Positions 867 through 39,195 of a stretch of DNA of 39,195 bases are shown in pieces. Each line of letters starts with the position of its first letter. The first letter of the stretch is position 1. A model generated the notes under the pieces. It worked only from the letters and a program-made list of their open reading frames with translations. It was not told the origin of the DNA and made no database searches. The position numbers and the translations under genes were made by a program. Source of the stretch: Microbispora sp. (GTDB lineage: Bacteria; Actinomycetota; Actinomycetes; Streptosporangiales; Streptosporangiaceae); NCBI GenBank assembly GCA_019689655.1, contig JADGHC010000003.1:1-39195 (forward strand), given 5' to 3'.

Positions 867-1808
867 GTGACCACGGCTCAGGATCTCATCACGGGAGCGC
901 TCAAGTTCGCGAACATCTATGCGCCGGGCGAATCCCTGGACGCCGCAGATGCCGAAGATGCGCTCGCTACGCTCAACGATATGCTCGAGTCGTGGTCCAC
1001 GACGCCCGGCGCAATCTTCAAGAGCGCCGAGTACATCCTGACATTCACCCCCGGGAAGTATGAGTACACGGTCGGCAACTACGATGCAGGTCAGTTTGCC
1101 GGCGAGGTGACGAGCGGCAGCGACACGATCACCAATGCCATCGTGCCTCCCGACATGGTCGCAGGCGGCGATCTGAGCGGCACAGGGATCCCGGACGGCA
1201 CCACCATCGAGTCCTTCGATGCAGTTGCTGGCACGGTGACGATGTCTCGGATCGCGACGGCGTCTCCGGGCATACAGCAGATCGGCTACACCATTCCGGG
1301 CGACTTCAAGATCCCGCGCCCGATCCGTGTGCGGCAGAGTTTCACTCGCATCACGACGCAGGCGAGTGGCCTCGACTACACCATCACGCCGGTGGATGAG
1401 GACACGTACAACCGGATTGGATACAAGGGCATCGCCGCGCCGTGGCCGATCGTCATGTGGTACAACCCGACGTATCCGCTCGCCACGCTCAAGTTCTATC
1501 AGAATCCCTCGCAGGCGGGCGAGCTCCATCTCTTCACGGATACCGTGCTCCAGCGGTTCTCGGACCTCACCGAAGCGGTCGAGATGCCGCCCGGGTATGC
1601 TCGAGCGATCAAGCGCAATCTCGCGCGGGAACTCGCGCCGGAGTATGGCGCCATCTGGACGCCGCAGATGGAGCGGCTTGCCAAGGAATCATTCGACCAG
1701 ATCAAGGCGCTCAATCGGACCCCGGTCCCAGTGTCGACGTATGACGCCCAAATCGTCATGCCGAAAACGACGGATGCGGGATGGATCCTTTACGGGGGAT
1801 TCAGGTGA
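867..1808 (+). CDS. P22 gp4-like tail accessory/packaged DNA stabilisation protein with inserted beta-rich module
   Basis: MTTAQDLITGALKFANIYAPGESLDAADAEDALATLNDMLESW...; position before gp10-like gene; insert SGTGIPDGTTIESF...TVTMSRIATAS. Confidence 0.75.
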   Translation: MTTAQDLITGALKFANIYAPGESLDAADAEDALATLNDMLESWSTTPGAIFKSAEYILTFTPGKYEYTVGNYDAGQFAGEVTSGSDTITNAIVPPDMVAGGDLSGTGIPDGTTIESFDAVAGTVTMSRIATASPGIQQIGYTIPGDFKIPRPIRVRQSFTRITTQASGLDYTITPVDEDTYNRIGYKGIAAPWPIVMWYNPTYPLATLKFYQNPSQAGELHLFTDTVLQRFSDLTEAVEMPPGYARAIKRNLARELAPEYGAIWTPQMERLAKESFDQIKALNRTPVPVSTYDAQIVMPKTTDAGWILYGGFR

Positions 1809-1961: not shown

Positions 1962-3671
1962 ATGCCGGGCGCTGACTTCGGCTTTGTCGGCCAGGCCTAT
2001 GCCCCGCCGAACGCAAACCAGGACGTGCAGCGGCTCGTCAATTGGTATCTGGAGGTGTCCGGAGACGGGCATTCAAAGATGCCGACCGCGCTGCTCGGGC
2101 GCCCGGGGCTGGATCCGGTCATCCAACTGGATGTTGGGGCCGTCCGTGGGGCCTGGGTGCTCCCGGGCGGCCAACAGGCGATCGCTGTCTCGGGCGATAC
2201 CGTCTACCTCATCACCTGCACAGTGCCGGCTACGCAGAGTTCCATCGCGCAGTTCTCGACGCGTGCGGTCGGGACGCTGAACACCAACAGCGGTCAGGTC
2301 CGCATACGAGACAACGGAGCCGGTGGGTATGCGGTGCTCGTCGATGGCCTGAATGGCTACTACGTCCGCATTGCTGGGCCCGGTACGACCACGTTCACCG
2401 GGACGCCGACCAACGGGAGCGCCACGCTGCCCTACGTCGGAGCGCTCAATACCGCGCTCGTCGTGGGCAGTGAGATCAGCGGCACGGGCATCGCGAGCGG
2501 CGCGAAGATCGAGAGCATCAACATCGACGCCGGCACGATCACGATGTCCGCCGCGGCGACGAGCACACCGGGCGATGTAACCATCACCGTCACGCTGGCG
2601 GAGTTCGGCGTGATCTCTGATCCCGGGTTCGAGCCGCCATCTCACATCGCATTCATCGATGGGTGGCTGATCGTCAATCGGGTAGGTACGCAGGCGTTCG
2701 CGACCTCTGGGCCCGTCCCGTATACGCTCATCTTCCCGCCGCTTTTCTTCGCGCTGAAGGATAGCCAGAGCGACAACCTCCAAGGGCTGCAGGAGCTCAA
2801 TCGCGAGTTGTGGCTTATCGGCGAGCGTGCTTCCGAAATCTGGTTCAACGCCGGCGGCGCTCAATTCGCGTTCCAGCGCATCCCGGGCGCGGCACCTCCG
2901 ATTGGCACGAGCGCTCCGCAGTCGATTACCCAAGTCGGTGACAGCCTGATGTGGCTGGGCAAGACCATCCAGGGCGAAAACATCGTCATCCAGACGCAGC
3001 AGTACAGCTGGAAGCGAGTCAGTCAGCATGGCGTCGAGACGGCGCTCTCGAGCTATCCGCTTGTCTCGGATGCGTTTGCTTACTCGTACGAGGAAGAGGG
3101 GCATCTCTTCTACGTGTTGACGTTCCCCACGGCGGACAAAACATGGGTGTTCGACAGCAACGGGACATGGCATGAGCGGCTGTCCTACGACGCCAGCACG
3201 GGGCAGTTCCATCGCGAGCGGCCCAACTGCTACATGAATTTCCAGAATCTCCGGCTGGTGGGCGACTACCAGTCCGGAGAGATTCACCAAATGAGCCGGA
3301 AATTCTTCACCGACGCCGGCGAGCCCATCGTTGCTGTCCGCCGCTGCCCGCACGTGTGGAGCGCGCAGGACCGCAAGCGCGTGATCAACACGGCGCTGCA
3401 GATCGAATTCACAGCGGGTGTCGGATCCCAGACCGGTCAAGGTGTGAATCCTCAAGCCATGTTGCGCTGGTCGAATGACGGCGGCCAGAGCTTCGGCAAC
3501 GAGCATTGGACCTCTATCGGTAAGGCGGGACGGACCAAGGATCGCGCCATCTGGCGTCGCCTGGGCCAAGCCTGGGACCGCGTGTATGAGGTGCGATTCA
3601 GCGATCCGGTCAAGCGTGACATCGTGGGCGCCACGCTGTTTCAGCTGCCGAGCGAGACGGGGCATCTATGA
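1962..3671 (+). CDS. P22 gp10-like tail hub/packaged DNA stabilisation protein
   Basis: MPGADFGFVGQAYAPPNANQDVQRLVNWYLEVS...; AGGAG at 1952 upstream of ATG; P22-like gene order. Confidence 0.75.
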   Translation: MPGADFGFVGQAYAPPNANQDVQRLVNWYLEVSGDGHSKMPTALLGRPGLDPVIQLDVGAVRGAWVLPGGQQAIAVSGDTVYLITCTVPATQSSIAQFSTRAVGTLNTNSGQVRIRDNGAGGYAVLVDGLNGYYVRIAGPGTTTFTGTPTNGSATLPYVGALNTALVVGSEISGTGIASGAKIESINIDAGTITMSAAATSTPGDVTITVTLAEFGVISDPGFEPPSHIAFIDGWLIVNRVGTQAFATSGPVPYTLIFPPLFFALKDSQSDNLQGLQELNRELWLIGERASEIWFNAGGAQFAFQRIPGAAPPIGTSAPQSITQVGDSLMWLGKTIQGENIVIQTQQYSWKRVSQHGVETALSSYPLVSDAFAYSYEEEGHLFYVLTFPTADKTWVFDSNGTWHERLSYDASTGQFHRERPNCYMNFQNLRLVGDYQSGEIHQMSRKFFTDAGEPIVAVRRCPHVWSAQDRKRVINTALQIEFTAGVGSQTGQGVNPQAMLRWSNDGGQSFGNEHWTSIGKAGRTKDRAIWRRLGQAWDRVYEVRFSDPVKRDIVGATLFQLPSETGHL

Positions 3672-4026: not shown

Positions 4027-4536
4027 ATGATTGAGTTCATGATCATTGCAGCGCCGCGCTCCGCGACCACCTGGGCCAGCAACTGGCTGACCACGGACGA
4101 GACGCTGTGCCTGCATGATCCGTTGATCAAATGGACGCGGGATGAGCTCGACGCCATCGAAACGCCGAAGATGCTGGGCATTGCCTGCACGGCCATCGCG
4201 CTGTTCCCGGAATGGGTCAATGCGCATCCGGCGCGCAAGGTCATCCTGCACAGAGATTTATCCGAGGTGGACGACTCGCTCGAGCGCATCGGGATGACGG
4301 GGTGCGGCTCCCAGTGGGCGGGCGTGCTCGATCGGATTGATGGCGTGCACATGCCTTGGGACGCTCTGTTTGACCCGGTCAGGGCCAAGGCCATCTACGA
4401 ATACCTGCTCGACCGTCCGTTCGACGCAGAGCGGTGGGCGGTGCTTCGTGAGATCAATGCTCAGCCGCACTTTCAAGGCGTCTCGATCAATCGGGAAGCA
4501 ACGGCCCGTTTCATGTCCGAGCTGAGGCCGCACTGA
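4027..4536 (+). CDS. Sulfotransferase-like P-loop protein
   Basis: MIEFMIIAAPRSATTWASNWL resembles the PAPS-binding loop PRSGTTWL; also HPARKVILHRDLSEVDDSLERIG. Confidence 0.6.
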   Translation: MIEFMIIAAPRSATTWASNWLTTDETLCLHDPLIKWTRDELDAIETPKMLGIACTAIALFPEWVNAHPARKVILHRDLSEVDDSLERIGMTGCGSQWAGVLDRIDGVHMPWDALFDPVRAKAIYEYLLDRPFDAERWAVLREINAQPHFQGVSINREATARFMSELRPH

Positions 4537-5096
4537 TGTTGCGCCTCATGCCATTCAAATTCGATGTGCGGACACTGCTCGAAGAGCTGGAGGCAGCTCC
4601 CGAGTTGTGGGATGACTTTGACCTCCGGACCAATCATCCGCAGTCCCCGCATCGGGAGATGAGCGACATCATCGTCCGCTACAACGCGCGCGAGAACTTC
4701 ACGGGTGACCGGGCGGCGTTCAATGAAGAGCACGAGGCGGTGTGGTGGGATGCCGTGAAGCGCCTGCCATCTGTGTTCCCTATCGTGTTCGATCTGATGC
4801 GGGCGGCACAGGGCGAGCGGCTGGGCATGGTGCTGATCACCAAGCAGCCGCCGGGCGCCACCTGCTATCCGCATGTCGATAACGGCTGGCATGCCCGTTA
4901 CTACGAAAAATTCGCTGTGCAGCTCGCGTCGAACGGAGGGCAGTCCTTCCACGTCGAGGACAGGTCGCTCGTGACGAACCCCGGCGATTGCTTCTGGTTC
5001 GATAACAGCCGGCCCCATTGGGTGCTGAACCCGACTGATGAGACGCGCATGACCATGATTGTTTGTATCCGCACTCGGTTCACGGGGAGGGTATAG
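4536..5096 (+). CDS. Aspartyl/asparaginyl beta-hydroxylase-like (2OG-Fe(II)) protein
   Basis: HVDNGW...GGQSFHVEDRSLVTNPGDCFWFDNSRPHWVLNPTDETRMTMIVCIRT: HxD...H...R pattern; start at 4536 (overlaps upstream stop) or 4549. Confidence 0.65.
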   Translation: MLRLMPFKFDVRTLLEELEAAPELWDDFDLRTNHPQSPHREMSDIIVRYNARENFTGDRAAFNEEHEAVWWDAVKRLPSVFPIVFDLMRAAQGERLGMVLITKQPPGATCYPHVDNGWHARYYEKFAVQLASNGGQSFHVEDRSLVTNPGDCFWFDNSRPHWVLNPTDETRMTMIVCIRTRFTGRV

Positions 5097-5098
5097 AG

Positions 5099-6037
5099 AT
5101 GCCCGTAGGTTGGGCCGCGGCTGGTGCCGCTGTAGCAGGACTCGCGGGCGCGGCGATGAGCTCATCCGCTGCGAAGAGCGCCGCGCGCACGCAGAAAGAC
5201 GCCGCTGCATATGCAGCCGATGTTCAGCGTGAGATGTTCGATATCTCGCGTGCCCAACAGGCGCCATTCATGCAATCGGGCTATAGCGCGAATGATGTCC
5301 TCTCGCGACTGCTGGGCCTTGCTCCAGGAGGCGGTGGCGTCAAGTTGCCCACTGCGCCTGGTGAAATCGATCAAGGTGCAGTCGGCATGCCGGACTGGCA
5401 GCAATACCTTCTCGATAATCCCGATGTCGCCGCCCATCCTGTTTTTAGCAAAAACCCACAGCTCCACTACGAGCGGCACGGCAAAAGCGAGGGCCGCAAA
5501 TTACCGACAATCCAGAAGCCCACCACCGCCGCAGGGGGTGGTGAACTGGATGAGCAGGGCTACGCAAAGGACAACACCGGCCTGCCGACCGGCTTTCTGA
5601 CGCAGCTGTTCACGCCGGAAGCCTTCAAGGCCGGCATGGATCCCGGCTACCAGTGGCGACTGCAACAGGGCGCGCAAGGCGTGATGAACACTGCGGCTGC
5701 GGGTTCCGGAGCGCTTTCTGGCCCCGCACTCAAGGCGCTCATGGACTACAACCAAGGTGCAGCGTCTCAGGAATACCAAGCTGCGTTCAATCGCTTCCAA
5801 ACACAGCAAGGCAACATCTTCCAGCGCCTCACGGCCATGGCGGGATTGGGCCAGAACGCCGCCGCGGGCGTGGGGAATCAGGCCGTCGCCACCGGTGGAA
5901 ACATCGGCGCAAACATCGTGGGTGGTGCAAACGCTGCCGCCGCCGGGCAGATCGGCGCTGCGAATGCGTGGGGCGGCGCGCTATCGGATCTTGGCGCTAT
6001 CGGCGCGTGGTACGCGATGAATAGGCAGGGAGGCTGA
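5099..6037 (+). CDS. DNA ejection/internal virion protein (P22 gp7-like position)
   Basis: MPVGWAAAGAAVAGLAGAAMSSSAAKSAARTQKDAAAYAAD...; Ala/Gly-rich with helix; gene order. Confidence 0.65.
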   Translation: MPVGWAAAGAAVAGLAGAAMSSSAAKSAARTQKDAAAYAADVQREMFDISRAQQAPFMQSGYSANDVLSRLLGLAPGGGGVKLPTAPGEIDQGAVGMPDWQQYLLDNPDVAAHPVFSKNPQLHYERHGKSEGRKLPTIQKPTTAAGGGELDEQGYAKDNTGLPTGFLTQLFTPEAFKAGMDPGYQWRLQQGAQGVMNTAAAGSGALSGPALKALMDYNQGAASQEYQAAFNRFQTQQGNIFQRLTAMAGLGQNAAAGVGNQAVATGGNIGANIVGGANAAAAGQIGAANAWGGALSDLGAIGAWYAMNRQGG

Positions 6038-6038
6038 C

Positions 6039-7499
6039 ATGGCCGAATACGGTCAGGTCGATGCGTCCATCCCCCTGTCGGCGCGCAAACCCGACACCAT
6101 GGGGAAGCTCTCCGATCTGCTCAACATGCAGAGAGCGGCGATCGCCGTCCAGGCCGACAGGACTGCGCTCGAGTCGGCGCAGCAGACTCAGCGTCAGCGC
6201 GCGGCGCTCGCGCAGTTCGATTGGTCCAAGTTGGTGGGCGATGACGGAACCATCGATTTGAACAAGATTATGGACAGCGGCCTCCGTGAGGCTGCGGGAG
6301 ACCAGTTCCCGCAAGCGCTCCAGCAGGCCGCACAAATCAAACAGCAGCAACTCGCGGCAAAACAGGCGCTCGTTGGTCTCACCGATGCGCAGCGCCAGTC
6401 ATTTGCCGAGATGGTCGGCGCGCTGCGATCCGATCCAGAGGTGGTGGCCGGGACGCCAGAAGGGCGACAGAAGATGACGCAGGCGATCGGGCAGTACGCG
6501 ATGATGTATGGCCCCGATGTGGAGAACGTCGTCAAAGCGTATGCAGCGCCGCTGATGAATGCCCCCGAGGGGCGCGTCGGTCAGGTGCTGCAGAACATTC
6601 AGCTGCAGGCGACCTCCGCGAGCGAGCAGGCCACGCGTCAGGCACCGCAGTACCAGAGCACCGGCGGCGAGCTGCGCAACGTCAATCCGTACGCGCAGAT
6701 CCAGCAGGCCCCCGCGACAATCCCGCTCACGATTGCACCGGGACAACAGTCGCAGGTCATGACGGACGTGCTCGGCAATCCGTACGAGCAGCGCCGCGAC
6801 CCGCGCGGCAACATTACTGCCGTGCGTCCGCTGGAAGGCCCACAGCATTTCACACCCGGCGAGCGCCAATCCCTGGAGCAGCAGGCGGAGGCCAACTTCC
6901 GCAACGTCGAGGCCAACCGAATTGCGGCATCGCTCGCGCCTCAGCAGCTAGACCAGATCGACAAGGCGCTCAAGATCAGCGAGAGCGTGAGCACTGGCGG
7001 CGGCAGCGAGTTCGCCAGGAAGCGCGCAAACATCGAGTCGGCCATTTCAGCCATCCTGCCGGGCTTCGACACCGCAGTTGATGACGCAACCAAGCTCCAG
7101 ATGCTGGACAAGTATCTTGAGCGTATCGCGGCCGACAGCGCCCGAGTGCTGGGCGCCAACGCCTCCACCGATGCTGCTCGAGAGTCGATCGCGCGGCAGA
7201 ACGCCTCCACCGGCTACACACGGGACGCCGTGCAGTCGGTGTTGGAGTATGCCAAGGCCCAGACCATGGCAATGGCAGCGAAGGGTGACGCTCAAGAAAA
7301 ATGGCTCAAGGAAAACAAGATCACCAATCACCACGAATTCGAGACCAAGTGGCGCCAGGCCTATGACCCCCTGTTGTTCCAGCTGAAGGCGGCCTCACCC
7401 GCCAAGCAAGAGAAGATGAGGAAGGCGCTCACTCCAGAGCAAAAGGCACGGCTGCGAGAAAAGCTCAAGCTGCTGCGTGAATTGGGGGCCATGGACTGA
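6039..7499 (+). CDS. DNA ejection protein (gp20/gp16-like position)
   Basis: 486 aa helical, Gln/Ala-rich, collinear with ejection genes. Confidence 0.6.
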   Translation: MAEYGQVDASIPLSARKPDTMGKLSDLLNMQRAAIAVQADRTALESAQQTQRQRAALAQFDWSKLVGDDGTIDLNKIMDSGLREAAGDQFPQALQQAAQIKQQQLAAKQALVGLTDAQRQSFAEMVGALRSDPEVVAGTPEGRQKMTQAIGQYAMMYGPDVENVVKAYAAPLMNAPEGRVGQVLQNIQLQATSASEQATRQAPQYQSTGGELRNVNPYAQIQQAPATIPLTIAPGQQSQVMTDVLGNPYEQRRDPRGNITAVRPLEGPQHFTPGERQSLEQQAEANFRNVEANRIAASLAPQQLDQIDKALKISESVSTGGGSEFARKRANIESAISAILPGFDTAVDDATKLQMLDKYLERIAADSARVLGANASTDAARESIARQNASTGYTRDAVQSVLEYAKAQTMAMAAKGDAQEKWLKENKITNHHEFETKWRQAYDPLLFQLKAASPAKQEKMRKALTPEQKARLREKLKLLRELGAMD

Positions 7500-9640
7500 T
7501 GGCTAGCCTCGACGAACTCTTGGCCGACGACGAGCCGCAGAAGGCGCCGCTCGACGACATCCTCGGCGACGAGCCTGACGCCGCGCCGAAGCCCGAGGAA
7601 AGCGTCTCATGGTGGCAGCGCGCCTTCGGCCAGGGATTGAAGGATACCCTCACCGGCCCCGGCCAGCTGATGCAGCACCTGAGCCCGGACGCCGCGATGA
7701 ATGTTGCGCGCAAGTCCATGGGCAGCATCGTGGGCTCGATTCCCGGCATGTCGGAGCGCGTCGCCGAAGATGTAGCGCGGCCGCGAACTACGGAAGAGTT
7801 CGACGAGATGGTCCGCCGCGACGAGCGGGCCTACCAAGCCGCTCGAAAGGAAGCGGGCCGCGAAGGAATGGACTGGTGGCGCACAGCTGGCGCACTGGCG
7901 AATCCTGTTGGGTGGCTGACGCCAGCGAGCAAGGGCCTCAAGCTCGTCGAGGCGATCAAAGCGGGCGCGAAGGCCGGCGCTTTCCAAGCACTGCTGCAGC
8001 CGGTGAACACCGAAGGCAATTTCATCTGGGACAAGTCAATGCAAGCCGCCTTGGGCGGCGCTACAGGCGGCTCGCTGAGCGGAGCAGTCAAGCTGCTCGA
8101 GCCAGCCATGCAGTATGCGACCAGCACCACGCGCAAAGTGCTGGGCCCGACCGCATCCGACAAGGCCGTCGATGCCGCGGCTGAGGACATCACGGATAAC
8201 ATCACGCGTGTGGCCGTGGGCGACGCCCAGATCAATCCAGATGTGTACTCAGCGATCAAGCAAGAGGTTGCCGATGCGCTGAAAGCCGGTGTGAGCCCGA
8301 GCGCTGAAGTGATCGCGCGTCGGGCGGATGCAGCGGCGCTCCCGGTCCCTGTCCATTTGACGCGGGCTCAGCTGACTCGCGACCCCATGCAGTGGGCATG
8401 GGAGCATCGCGTTTCTGGTCAACGCGGCGTCGGTGAGCCGCTGGCGGATCTTCTGTCAGCCCAGAACCGGGCGCTAATTGCCAACCTCAATGAGCTCGGC
8501 GCAGCTGCTGCGCCATCGCCATTCGATGCCTCTCAGCGCGTCATCTCGCACATCCAGAATCTGGACGACCAACTGCGCAACCAGATCAACGAGGCGTACT
8601 CGAAGGTGCGCAATTCCGCAGGCCGCTCCGCCAGCGTGAGCAATCAAGGATTCCTCGAGGGCGCTCGCAATCGATTGACGCAGGGGAAGCCGGAGCTCGC
8701 AGGCTTGACGAGCCTCGCGGATTACCTGCCCGAGACGATCAGGCGCCAATACAACGACATCGCCTCCGGGAAGCTTCCGCTCACGGTGGATACCATCCAG
8801 TTTTTGGACCGTGCATGGGGCGGCCTCCAGCGTGGCGCCAAGGACGACACCGAGCGTGCGGCGATTGGAGCGCTACGCAAAGCGCTCAACGATGCGCCGA
8901 TCGATGATGCGATCGGCAAGGAGTCGATGGACGCCTATAAGGCAGCGCGACAGATGGCGGCTCAGCGATTCCAGTTGATCGATCAAAACCCGGCGTACAA
9001 GGCGGTCGTGGAAGGCACCAAGCAAGCGGAGCCCGACAAGTTTTTTCAGACATTCATCGAAGGCGCGCCAGTCTCGCAAATCAAGGCGCTGAAGCAGCTG
9101 ATCGGTCCAGAAAACGTGGCCATGCTCCAGAACACCACCGTGGGCCAGCTGAAGCGTGCCGCGCTCAATAAGGCGAGCGACGAGGCCGGCAAATTCTCGC
9201 AAGCCGCCTATAACCGAATCCTGCAGGATCCCGTGCGTGGCCCGAGGATCCGGGAGCTGTTCGCGGACAACCCCAAGACGCTGGATCAACTGTATCGCGT
9301 CGGGCGAGTGGCAGAGAACCTGATCTCTATTCCGGCGGCGAGTCGCGTCAACACCTCGAACACGGCGGGTGAGATCGCAAACATCGTGCGCGATGTCGCT
9401 GCGAGCGAGACCGGGCAGGCGCTCACCTCCATGCTGCCCAATTGGGTCACCGGAGCGGGCCGCATCATTGGCAAGGCCGGCGAAGAGGTTCGACAAGCTC
9501 AAGCGGTACGCGATGCCGTGAACCCCGGCGTGACCGCCGCTCCGCTACCGAAGACGCGGCAGCCGAGCATGCGGCGGCTGAGCGATCTTCTTTCGCGCGG
9601 AGGTGCAGCCACAGCAACGGCGGATCAGCGAGAGGAATAG
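7499..9640 (+). CDS. Large DNA ejection/internal virion protein
   Basis: 713 aa, start overlaps upstream stop; position before tailspikes. Confidence 0.6.
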   Translation: MASLDELLADDEPQKAPLDDILGDEPDAAPKPEESVSWWQRAFGQGLKDTLTGPGQLMQHLSPDAAMNVARKSMGSIVGSIPGMSERVAEDVARPRTTEEFDEMVRRDERAYQAARKEAGREGMDWWRTAGALANPVGWLTPASKGLKLVEAIKAGAKAGAFQALLQPVNTEGNFIWDKSMQAALGGATGGSLSGAVKLLEPAMQYATSTTRKVLGPTASDKAVDAAAEDITDNITRVAVGDAQINPDVYSAIKQEVADALKAGVSPSAEVIARRADAAALPVPVHLTRAQLTRDPMQWAWEHRVSGQRGVGEPLADLLSAQNRALIANLNELGAAAAPSPFDASQRVISHIQNLDDQLRNQINEAYSKVRNSAGRSASVSNQGFLEGARNRLTQGKPELAGLTSLADYLPETIRRQYNDIASGKLPLTVDTIQFLDRAWGGLQRGAKDDTERAAIGALRKALNDAPIDDAIGKESMDAYKAARQMAAQRFQLIDQNPAYKAVVEGTKQAEPDKFFQTFIEGAPVSQIKALKQLIGPENVAMLQNTTVGQLKRAALNKASDEAGKFSQAAYNRILQDPVRGPRIRELFADNPKTLDQLYRVGRVAENLISIPAASRVNTSNTAGEIANIVRDVAASETGQALTSMLPNWVTGAGRIIGKAGEEVRQAQAVRDAVNPGVTAAPLPKTRQPSMRRLSDLLSRGGAATATADQREE

Positions 9641-13020: not shown

Positions 13021-13223
13021 CAGACGTGCACCGTGATCTCGGCGCCCACGGCGAGGCCATCCGGACGCTACAGAAGGAAGTCACTGCGCTGCGCGGGGAT
13101 GTGGCCGAGATCAAGGCGATGATCGCGGCGAGCAAGGGCGGCCTGCGCATGCTGATGGCGGTGGGCGGCGTGGCTGCGGCGATCGGCTCGGTGGCGACGA
13201 AACTGTGGGAGCACCTGACGTGA
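13017..13223 (+). CDS. XhlA/holin-like small membrane protein
   Basis: MTDVHRDLGAHGEAIRTLQKEVTALRGDVAEIKAMIAASKGGLRMLMAVGGVAAAIGSVATKLWEHLT: coiled coil plus C-terminal TM. Confidence 0.65.
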   Translation: MTDVHRDLGAHGEAIRTLQKEVTALRGDVAEIKAMIAASKGGLRMLMAVGGVAAAIGSVATKLWEHLT

Positions 13224-13690
13224 TCGGCGAGCTCACGCGCTTCGCGTACCTGCGTTCTTGCACGCTCGGCATGTTGCGCTTCGGCGAACTGGAGCTCGCG
13301 ACCATCGAACGGCCGTGGATCCCGAACCCTGCCGGGCCAGGCGGTCGGCCGCGCGAGTCGTGCATTCCGGACGGTATGTACACCGTGCGGCCACACGCCT
13401 CGCAGCGATTCCCCAACACGTACGCGCTAATCAATCACGCGCTCGGCGTCTACTACCAGCCGGGCGATGTCCCGCCAGGGCAGCCGTGGGGCCGCACGGC
13501 GATCCTCATTCACGTCGGCAATAGTGTGCAGGACGTGATCGGCTGCATCGCCGTCGGCATGCACCACGCCGCCGAGCAGCTCATGGTGGTCGACAGCCGC
13601 ATCGCCATGGATCGGCTGCGCAACGTGCTCGGGCGAGACACGCATCAACTCATCATCCGGCCTGTGGCCGGCACACAGGAGAAAGCATGA
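13220..13690 (+). CDS. DUF5675-like protein, candidate lysis enzyme
   Basis: GTG start overlapping upstream stop; LRFGELELATIERPW...CIPDGMYTVRPH...AILIHVGNSVQDVIGCIAVG; lies in lysis cassette. Confidence 0.65.
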   Translation: MIGELTRFAYLRSCTLGMLRFGELELATIERPWIPNPAGPGGRPRESCIPDGMYTVRPHASQRFPNTYALINHALGVYYQPGDVPPGQPWGRTAILIHVGNSVQDVIGCIAVGMHHAAEQLMVVDSRIAMDRLRNVLGRDTHQLIIRPVAGTQEKA

Positions 13691-15966: not shown

Positions 15967-16198
15967 GACGCAGGAATTGGAAATTGGGCTCCCACTCGCC
16001 GACAGGTTCTGTCGACCGGCCTGTCGTAGCTTGCACGCCTCCGAGCAAATGTTCCACGTGCGCGCGCAGCACGAACGGGGTGCCATCGGGTCGCATGCGG
16101 TGCTCGATGCCCATGGCTCGCAGGGCCCGGATCTGGGCCGCGCCCTGCCGCTTGCCGGTGATCTCAATCAACTCGTCAGGAGTGCAGGCGATTCTCAT
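15956..16198 (-). CDS. DUF4224-like/excisionase-type small protein
   Basis: MRIACTPDELIEITGKRQGAAQIRALRAMGIEHRMRPDGTPFVLRAHVEHLLG; immediately upstream of int. Confidence 0.65.
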   Translation of the reverse strand: MRIACTPDELIEITGKRQGAAQIRALRAMGIEHRMRPDGTPFVLRAHVEHLLGGVQATTGRSTEPVGEWEPNFQFLRHGT

Positions 16199-16842
16199 GA
16201 CAGCGCCTCCAGGCCCTGGTCGCGGGCACGGTTGATGCGGGCGGCGAGCTCGGTATCGCCGCCGCCACGGTCCGGGTGGTGTTTCATGATGAGTGAGCGG
16301 TGCGCCTGCTCGATCTGCTCGCGAGTGACGTTCGGGCTGGAGAGACCGAGAACCTGCCACCAGCTTTCCGGCGCCGGCAGCGCGGTGAATCCCTGGAACG
16401 CGCGGTCGAGAATTGTGGCACCACCATGGCGCTCGATCGCACGCATCGCTTCGATCGTGGCGGCGATCGCGGCCAGGTTGTCCTGCACGCGGTCGTAACG
16501 ATCGATGGCCATGCAGCGCGTGTCCTTCCCTTTGCGCCAATACACCGCGACGCCGGGATCGACGGCTGTGCGATCGCTGCGAGGCAATCCGTCCAGCCGC
16601 GTCGGAATGTTTGTGATGATCACCACGTCGTCGCGCGTGACACCCATGCGGCCGAGCTCCTCGAGCACGCGCTGCACGCCGTCGGCGACAGAGAGATCGC
16701 GCTTGCGCATGTAGCTGCCGGTGCCTGAGCTGAAGAAGTGCCGCTCGGTCTTGCCGAACTTCGCTCGCTCGCGCCGCCATTCTTCGGTGCGCCGCCAGCC
16801 GACCGGCCATTGCAACGGGAACGCTTGAATCGCTTCGCTCAT
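16195..16842 (-). CDS. J-domain (DnaJ-like) protein
   Basis: C-terminal SWWQVLGLSSPNVTREQIEQAHRSLIMKHHPDRGGGDTELAARINRARD with HPD motif. Confidence 0.8.
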   Translation of the reverse strand: MSEAIQAFPLQWPVGWRRTEEWRRERAKFGKTERHFFSSGTGSYMRKRDLSVADGVQRVLEELGRMGVTRDDVVIITNIPTRLDGLPRSDRTAVDPGVAVYWRKGKDTRCMAIDRYDRVQDNLAAIAATIEAMRAIERHGGATILDRAFQGFTALPAPESWWQVLGLSSPNVTREQIEQAHRSLIMKHHPDRGGGDTELAARINRARDQGLEALS

Positions 16843-28840: not shown

Positions 28841-29067
28841 GTTGGACCGCCGACCCCGCCAAGCGCGAAGCCCGCGACGAACACGGCTATCGCATCACCT
28901 GGGCCGATAACAAGCACGGCACTTGGTACAACGCCTACGCGCCTAGCGGCCGGCACATTGACGCCGGCTACGACAAAGAGATCGTGAAGGCGATGTGCGA
29001 GGTTCATCGGGAGAAGCTGGCGAAGGATCGCGCCGCGTACAGGCAAAAGAAACTGGAGCGAGCATGA
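28837..29067 (+). CDS. Hypothetical protein
   Basis: 76 aa, ATGA coupling. Confidence 0.55.
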   Translation: MSWTADPAKREARDEHGYRITWADNKHGTWYNAYAPSGRHIDAGYDKEIVKAMCEVHREKLAKDRAAYRQKKLERA

Positions 29068-30107
29068 GCGAGCAGGGCACGACAAAGGATCAGCTCTCTC
29101 GCATGCGCTATCTGAGCGTGTGCAGCGGGATTGAGGCTGCGACTGTGGCGTGGCATCCGCTCGGTTGGCGAGCTCTCTGGTACAGCGAGATTGATGCATT
29201 CCCGTCAGCCGTGCTCGCGCATCACTACCCCGGAACGCCCAACCTTGGCGACATGACCAAATTCAGAGAGTGGCCGGATGCAAACATCGATCTTCTCGTT
29301 GGCGGAACCCCTTGTCAGTCCTTCAGCGTTGCGGGATTCCGAAAGGGACTGGCTGACCCGCGTGGCAACCTCATGCTCACCTATCTTGCCATCGCTGCAC
29401 GCTATCGCCCCGACTGGCTGGTATGGGAGAACGTCCCCGGCGTCCTGTCTACCAACGAAGGACGAGATTTTGGAGCCTTTGTCTGGGCGTTGGGCAAACT
29501 CGGGTATGGGTGGGCCTACCGAAGCCTTGACGCTCAATACTTCAACCTGGCCCAGCAGCGCGAGCGTGTGTTCGTTGTCGCAAGTGCTCGAGGTTGGCCC
29601 AGTGCCGCAGCGGTACTTTTTGAGCGCGCGAGCCTGTCGGGGCATCCTGCGCCGAGCCGAGAAGCGGGGCAAGAAGCTGCCCTCCCGGTTACTACGCGCG
29701 TTGACCGAGGTGGCAGCAATCGAGAAGCCCAAGGCAACAACCTCGTCGCTCACTGTCTGAATGCCAAGGGCGGTTCTGGTCGCATCGACGCCGAAAGCGA
29801 AACGTTCATTGCGCACACGCTCACGGCCGAGATGTATAGATCAGGCGGCGCGACTGCTGGCAACAATCCCGGTGTTCGCAACTGCTTTCCGATGCAGACA
29901 GGCGTGCGTCGCCTGACGCCTCGAGAGTGCGAGCGGCTGCAAGGCTTCCCGGACGATTACACACTGATCCCGTACCGAGGCAAGCCAGCAAAGGACTCGC
30001 CGCGGTACAAGGCGCTAGGAAACTCCATGGCGGTGCCGATTATGCGATGGATCGGGCAGAGGATTGCAGCAGTGGATGCGATCGTCAGTCAGAGGGCGGC
30101 GGCATGA
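29064..30107 (+). CDS. DNA (cytosine-5) methyltransferase
   Basis: LSVCSGIEAATVAW, GGTPCQSFSVAG (PCQ), WENVPG, QRERVFVVA, GNSMAVPIMRWIG. Confidence 0.93.
   Translation: MSEQGTTKDQLSRMRYLSVCSGIEAATVAWHPLGWRALWYSEIDAFPSAVLAHHYPGTPNLGDMTKFREWPDANIDLLVGGTPCQSFSVAGFRKGLADPRGNLMLTYLAIAARYRPDWLVWENVPGVLSTNEGRDFGAFVWALGKLGYGWAYRSLDAQYFNLAQQRERVFVVASARGWPSAAAVLFERASLSGHPAPSREAGQEAALPVTTRVDRGGSNREAQGNNLVAHCLNAKGGSGRIDAESETFIAHTLTAEMYRSGGATAGNNPGVRNCFPMQTGVRRLTPRECERLQGFPDDYTLIPYRGKPAKDSPRYKALGNSMAVPIMRWIGQRIAAVDAIVSQRAAA
29074..29093. repeat. 20-bp direct repeat encoding GTTKDQ, copy 1
   Basis: AGGGCACGACAAAGGATCAG, identical at 30126-30145. Confidence 0.9.
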
Positions 30108-38976: not shown

Positions 38977-39195
38977 ATGCACATGTCATACACCAATCCC
39001 GGGCCCGCAGTGACTACGGGCAGCACAGTCGGCGGACTCAATAGCCCGGACACGATGGGCGCGTCGCCGGACAGTCTGATTTCGTTCCACGGCGCGACGC
39101 CGATCGCGCAGCAGACTGTGACAGGCGCTCGCGATGACGGCACGGCGTTGGCGAGTTTGCTGACGGCGCTCGCCAACCTCGGACTGATCGTCGAC
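38977..39195 (+). CDS. Head fibre/decoration-like protein, 5' part; continues at 1-117 after circularisation
   Basis: MHMSYTNPGPAVTTGSTVGGLNSPDTMGASPDSLISFHGATPIAQQTVTGARDDGTALASLLTALANLGLIVD, then DSTAT* at 100-117; directly follows coat. Confidence 0.75.
   Translation, partial: MHMSYTNPGPAVTTGSTVGGLNSPDTMGASPDSLISFHGATPIAQQTVTGARDDGTALASLLTALANLGLIVD
39097..39195. repeat. 99-bp exact terminal direct repeat (copy 2)
   Basis: Identical to 1-99. Confidence 0.97.

Follow-up and report, generated by a model that had tools for sequence, protein, structure and literature searches.

A sulfotransferase-like gene and an Asp/Asn-hydroxylase-type gene overlapping by one base upstream of the DNA ejection genes of a P22-like temperate podophage

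The phage genome and the gene pair

The window (the whole stretch of 39,195 nucleotides that was analysed) ends as it begins, as positions 1-99 and 39097-39195 are an identical 99 bp. Given this terminal overlap, the contig closes into a circular phage genome of 39,096 bp. It encodes an integrase, a repressor-like regulator, a terminase, a portal, a scaffold and a coat protein, and on this basis the window is a complete temperate podophage (short-tailed phage) with a P22-like gene order. The contig (C545) is part of a 6.3-Mb assembly and the presumed host of the phage is drawn solely from that assembly. Outside the late region described below, the genome carries a gene for a C-5 cytosine DNA methylase (28995-30107; PF00145, 4e-51), a gene on the minus strand beside the integrase with a weak C-terminal match to the DnaJ domain (16195-16842; 25.9 bits, slightly below the cut-off of 27.8) and, downstream of the tail spike, a DUF5675 gene (13205-13690; 1.3e-20), which by position is possibly lysis-related.

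The genes of the late region that surround the pair are listed in Table 1. The two open reading frames were recovered where the original prediction had placed them, between a gp10-like gene and the ejection genes, and they overlap in the way it described: the stop codon of the first (TGA, 4534-4536) and the start codon of the second (ATG, 4536-4538) share a single base, the A of TGATG. The GC content at third codon positions (GC3) is 0.79 in both genes, similar to that of the adjoining late genes. The prediction had passed over the small gene that intervenes between the head closure gene and the pair, the exact start of the ejection gene and the fact that the phage genome is complete and circular.

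Table 1. Late genes around the overlapping pair (positions in the window).
Feature	Position	Strand	Basis
Head-tail adaptor-like gene	867..1808	+	phrog_12985 (3e-41); phrog_637, head-tail adaptor Ad3 (4e-9)
P22 gp10-like head closure / tail nozzle protein	1962..3671	+	phrog_578, head closure Hc3 (1.6e-89)
Small late gene, 118 aa	3668..4024	+	ORF call
Putative minimal sulfotransferase-like protein, 169 aa (protein 1)	4027..4536	+	phrog_10855
Predicted Asp/Asn-hydroxylase-type 2OG-Fe(II) oxygenase, 186 aa (protein 2)	4536..5096	+	PF05118
DNA ejection protein A	5100..6037	+	phrog_598, DNA ejection (1e-25)
Second internal/ejection protein	6039..7499	+	Homologue of PBR31 internal protein B (1.5e-19)
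Third ejection protein, probable	7499..9640	+	ORF; assigned by position alone

The head closure ORF begins at 1920 (GTG), the start at 1962 (ATG) being an alternative, and its product is ~51-56% identical to the 'tail tubular protein B' of Xanthomonas phage PBR31. Ejection protein A is homologous to internal protein A of the same phage (2.7e-31) and to an internal virion protein of phage PfAn1 (2.7e-6). The 118-aa product gave no match in Pfam or PHROG, and searches of both yielded no convincing family match for the probable third ejection protein.

Identity of the two proteins

Protein 1 matches phrog_10855 over nearly its full length (3e-52, residues 1-166 of 169), and no Pfam or NCBIfam family was matched, even at an E-value of 1. 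In this it differs from the sulfotransferases of PF00685 (Sulfotransfer_1) and PF13469 (Sulfotransfer_3). Since no curated sulfotransferase model recognizes the protein, we term it 'sulfotransferase-like', a designation by remote similarity only. The similarity is concentrated in two elements. The stretch APRSATTWASNWL (residues 9-21) contains a 5'-PSB-like loop, P10-R-S-A-T-T-W16 (PRSATTW, thus PKSGTTW-like), which follows the first beta-strand, and a 3'-PB-like pair, R76 and S84, invariant and eight residues apart, likewise follows a beta-strand; H30-D31-P32 is conserved as well. These PAPS motifs are ordered as in PF00685 and PF13469, and the R-S spacing is mostly equal: the R-x7-S arrangement was found in 18 of the 23 sulfotransferases examined among the relatives of the source genome. 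What sets protein 1 apart is its size, 169 aa against ~180-265 aa for the matched Sulfotransfer domains, with a short region between the motifs.

To compare profiles, alignments of sulfotransferases and of P-loop kinases were built from the relatives of the source genome and compared using hhalign. Protein 1 reached 80.2% against the Sulfotransfer_3 set, 88.5% against the Sulfotransfer_1 set and 89.7% (local) or 96.3% (global) against the combined sulfotransferase set, and the two PAPS motifs aligned in the expected sequence; the AAA_33 kinase set gave 0.5%. Taken separately, the local matches fall on the two PAPS-binding motifs or span them, and the sulfotransferase scores (40-52) lie above the highest value obtained in 100 column shuffles (26.1). 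Searches of PDB sequences with protein 1 or its alignment returned no useful match. An AlphaFold2 (AF2) model computed from two sequences, those of the window and of a homologue on an Acidobacteria phage-like contig (L024, see below), had a pLDDT of 60.9 and a pTM of 0.63, and shows a strand at 4-8, a helix at 13-21 and a strand at 70-75, with a strand-loop-helix unit at both motifs; a model from the protein 1 sequence alone (pLDDT 42.6) was left out of the analysis. The best match of the two-sequence model in BFVD was a 156-aa phage protein of the 'sulfotransferase family' (E 4.4e-5, probability 1.00) and the third was a sulfotransferase of Xanthomonas phage FoX4 (E 0.02). The second, a Quinobequin-P09 protein, is itself a relative of protein 1 and thus provides no independent evidence. 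Within the PDB the best match was the plant steroid sulfotransferase 1q44, a weak match (E 0.09, TM 0.43) to a query model of pLDDT 60.9, and lower down other sulfotransferases were interspersed with unrelated folds.

Database labels suggest a different identity, namely another P-loop enzyme such as a nucleotide kinase or NTP hydrolase. Homologues of protein 1 have been deposited as 'putative nucleotide triphosphate hydrolase' or 'hydrolase', the PHROG label of phrog_10855 is hydrolase, and a length of merely 169 aa would suit such an enzyme. Nevertheless, the protein lacks the GxxxxGKS/T element, the phiH1 record of a homologue carries the remark 'similar to sulfotransferase', and the best fold matches, of which that in the PDB is weak (E 0.09), were to sulfotransferases. 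Considering also the contrast between the kinase and sulfotransferase profiles, we dropped the kinase/NTP-hydrolase reading, which appears improbable. The assignment of protein 1 as a minimal sulfotransferase-like protein, with sulfate transfer as its putative activity, agrees with the original prediction, which had started from the 5'-PAPS loop; the sulfotransferase likeness is well supported by motifs, profiles and the best viral fold match.

Protein 2 scored 36.2 bits against PF05118 (7e-9; curated cut-off 22.6) and contains HVD and NPGDCFWFDNSRPHWVLNPTDETRMTMIV, which supply the complete HxD...H...R set: H113, D115 and H161 as iron ligands and R171 as the 2-oxoglutarate (2OG)-binding residue, all of them conserved without exception in an alignment of four phage homologues. 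The best solved relatives of its profile were the L-proline cis-4-hydroxylase 4p7w (2e-7) and the proline hydroxylase 1e5r, followed by AspH (5apa). In the alignment with 4p7w the spacing between the histidines (48) and between histidine and arginine (10) is the same as in protein 2, which differs from 4p7w and the Asp/Asn beta-hydroxylase family PF05118 in being a stand-alone phage protein of 186 aa. The family match and the full ligand set support the earlier AspH-type call, and the protein would act as an Asp/Asn-type 2OG-Fe(II) oxygenase on a free amino acid, a peptide or a protein; from family membership the protein would adopt a double-stranded beta-helix fold. Altogether, neither a generic P-loop kinase nor a non-2OG cupin emerged from the comparisons, and the two enzyme identities of the original prediction are supported.

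Relatives and the interval before the ejection genes

Full-length homologues of protein 1 (38-45% identity) are present in at least 48 deposited records of phages of Pseudomonas, Stenotrophomonas, Xanthomonas and Variovorax. One further relative came from scanning bacterial genomes, on the phage-like contig JAKAKG010000227.1 (L024) of an Acidobacteria metagenome-assembled genome (MAG). In 300 genomes of the family and 398 of the phylum the protein 1 alignment retrieved the window's own copy alone, and no relative was found in plasmids. Outside the window phage, most of the relatives examined reside in long-tailed phages, within replication (early) or lysis regions. For example, the phrog_10855 members of Nipunavirus, Pamexvirus, Abidjanvirus and others (PaMx25, AAT-1, PaMx11 and ply2008005c) are 38-47% identical to protein 1 and share PRSxTTW and R-x7-S with it, but their genes lie amid replication, repair or lysis genes and no hydroxylase partner was found. 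This distribution speaks against a family role in which the substrate is part of the virion. Phage relatives of protein 2 are fewer, with four records found using the window protein as query; a search of 100 relatives of the source genome returned only the window's own copy and no relative was found in the collection of genome contigs. The hydroxylase relatives in Itty13 and S-SM2 are located within replication regions. Given that both families occur in replication or lysis regions elsewhere, neither requires a nearby ejection gene.

Each gene nevertheless recurs beside ejection genes. The hydroxylase gene lies upstream of the ejection gene, with zero to one genes between the two, in three podophages (the window, ctXG1253 and PfAn1) and the sulfotransferase-like gene lies beside ejection or ejection-like genes in two (the window and L024). 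In ctXG1253 the end of the hydroxylase gene is the start of the DNA-ejection gene, and in PfAn1 a GNAT gene separates the hydroxylase gene from that of the internal virion protein homologous to the ejection protein of the window. The two hydroxylases are 41% and 29% identical to protein 2, respectively, but where the window has the sulfotransferase-like gene their neighbours are a small gene (ctXG1253) and the GNAT acetyltransferase gene (PfAn1). A sulfotransferase in the interval of ctXG1253 was ruled out, as the neighbouring gene is unrelated. On L024, which lacks the hydroxylase, the protein 1 relative is located immediately upstream of a gene whose start was judged by eye to be ejection-protein-like; blastp detected no similarity between its product and the ejection proteins of the window. 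In the region 2393-6534 of L024 the sulfotransferase-like gene is immediately preceded by a gene for a 1203-aa protein with many carboxypeptidase-regulatory-like repeats.

A GNAT gene also follows the hydroxylase gene in Limnohabitans phage DC33 (PQ492659.1; L007 / L100), from which an Asp/Asn hydroxylase gene has been reported (PMC12195039), as it has from cyanophages (PMC3037559). The record of DC33 gives its taxonomy as Inoviridae, yet a large terminase gene is present and the virion is described in the DC33 paper as tailed, with an icosahedral head. In PBR31, the closest structural relative of the window phage, neither gene of the pair was found. The same interval there holds a gene annotated as acetyltransferase (L012, 8569-8940), which was discarded as a parallel case since no Pfam family matches it. 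Other relatives have short tail fibres, small genes or an acetylesterase (so labelled in the record) in this interval. The recurrence of each gene alone beside podophage ejection genes is what indicates an accessory-gene slot, and the interval before the ejection gene looks like a site that tolerates extra genes.

Independent enzymes or a joint pathway

Based on the above, we consider it probable that the pair consists of two accessory enzymes of the late operon, which were acquired separately by a temperate P22-like podophage in a variable slot upstream of the first DNA-ejection gene. The predicted reaction of protein 1 is the transfer of sulfate from PAPS onto a hydroxyl or amine acceptor, and that of protein 2 the hydroxylation of a side chain with 2-oxoglutarate, O2 and Fe(II). 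Through the overlap of stop and start codon, translation of the two genes is probably coupled. We infer that both enzymes are catalytically active and expressed late, together with the tail operon, and that they act independently. Given that the examined relatives of protein 1 are mostly found in the replication and lysis regions of long-tailed phages, its target is most likely a host component or a small molecule. In the case of protein 2, a target in the virion is a fair alternative.

The original prediction had instead proposed a virion- or host-surface-modifying cassette, for example one that hydroxylates and sulfates a tail/ejection protein or envelope glycans. As a working two-step pathway, the hydroxylase would create a hydroxyl on a residue of such a protein, or on a molecule of the host envelope, for the sulfotransferase to sulfate. 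The one-base overlap and the adjacency would also be expected of a working pair and as such count against independence; the pair sits immediately before the ejection genes, beside which each enzyme singly recurs in other podophages, and hydroxylation chemically yields an acceptor for sulfate. However, the pair was not kept together in the relatives searched. No record is shared between the protein 1 set (48 phage records and the phage of the MAG) and the protein 2 set, a direct search for PF05118 in five protein 1 phage records and in the L024 genome gave no match, and when both models were run on 22 records and genomes, the window's genome alone contained both genes. The absence of co-occurrence should be read in the light of the small sample on the hydroxylase side, four phage relatives of protein 2, and the pair may be commoner than the searched records show. 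Since the searches yielded no other phage carrying the two genes, and the examined relatives of protein 1 elsewhere lie away from tail genes, conservation of the pair, on which the cassette depended, was not observed and the proposal appears unlikely. The hydroxylate-then-sulfate pathway is attractive chemistry, but as it rests on adjacency in one genome it makes a weak case. Its most specific form, in which a tail or ejection protein receives the hydroxyl and is then sulfated by the minimal PAPS sulfotransferase to yield a sulfated virion component, is very unlikely. Another possibility is that the hydroxylase alone has a virion target, an ejection or tail protein, whereas the sulfotransferase-like gene came along as an unrelated passenger and is directed at the host. 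The position of the hydroxylase gene in the three podophages where an ejection gene was detected close by speaks for this, but the relatives in Itty13 and S-SM2 lie in replication regions, and the adjacency may only reflect a place where insertions are tolerated, given the different genes that other phages carry there. We regard it as rather unlikely, though somewhat less so than the cassette, and retain separate acquisition and independent action as the preferred reading.

Each of the two families is already known in other phages and, as far as searched, the two occur together only here. A search of the open-access literature on phage sulfotransferases, with or without an Asp hydroxylase, recovered no paper describing such a pair. 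A related case is that of the marine OM43 phages: according to the available text of PMC10580990, Sulfotransfer_3 and 2OG-Fe(II) oxygenase genes both occur in the group and the function of the phage sulfotransferases is unclear. These belong to other families (PF13469 and PF13640), and that part of the paper describes no coupled pair.

If the pair acted together it would constitute a new kind of virion modification, although this is not what the evidence favours. More generally, the recurrence of differing modifying enzymes beside podophage ejection genes raises the testable question of whether such phages carry chemical modifications on their ejection or tail proteins. Finally, phrog_10855, the members of which are mostly labelled 'hydrolase', would be better read as a family of minimal sulfotransferases, which makes a standard PAPS assay feasible in well-studied Pseudomonas phages.
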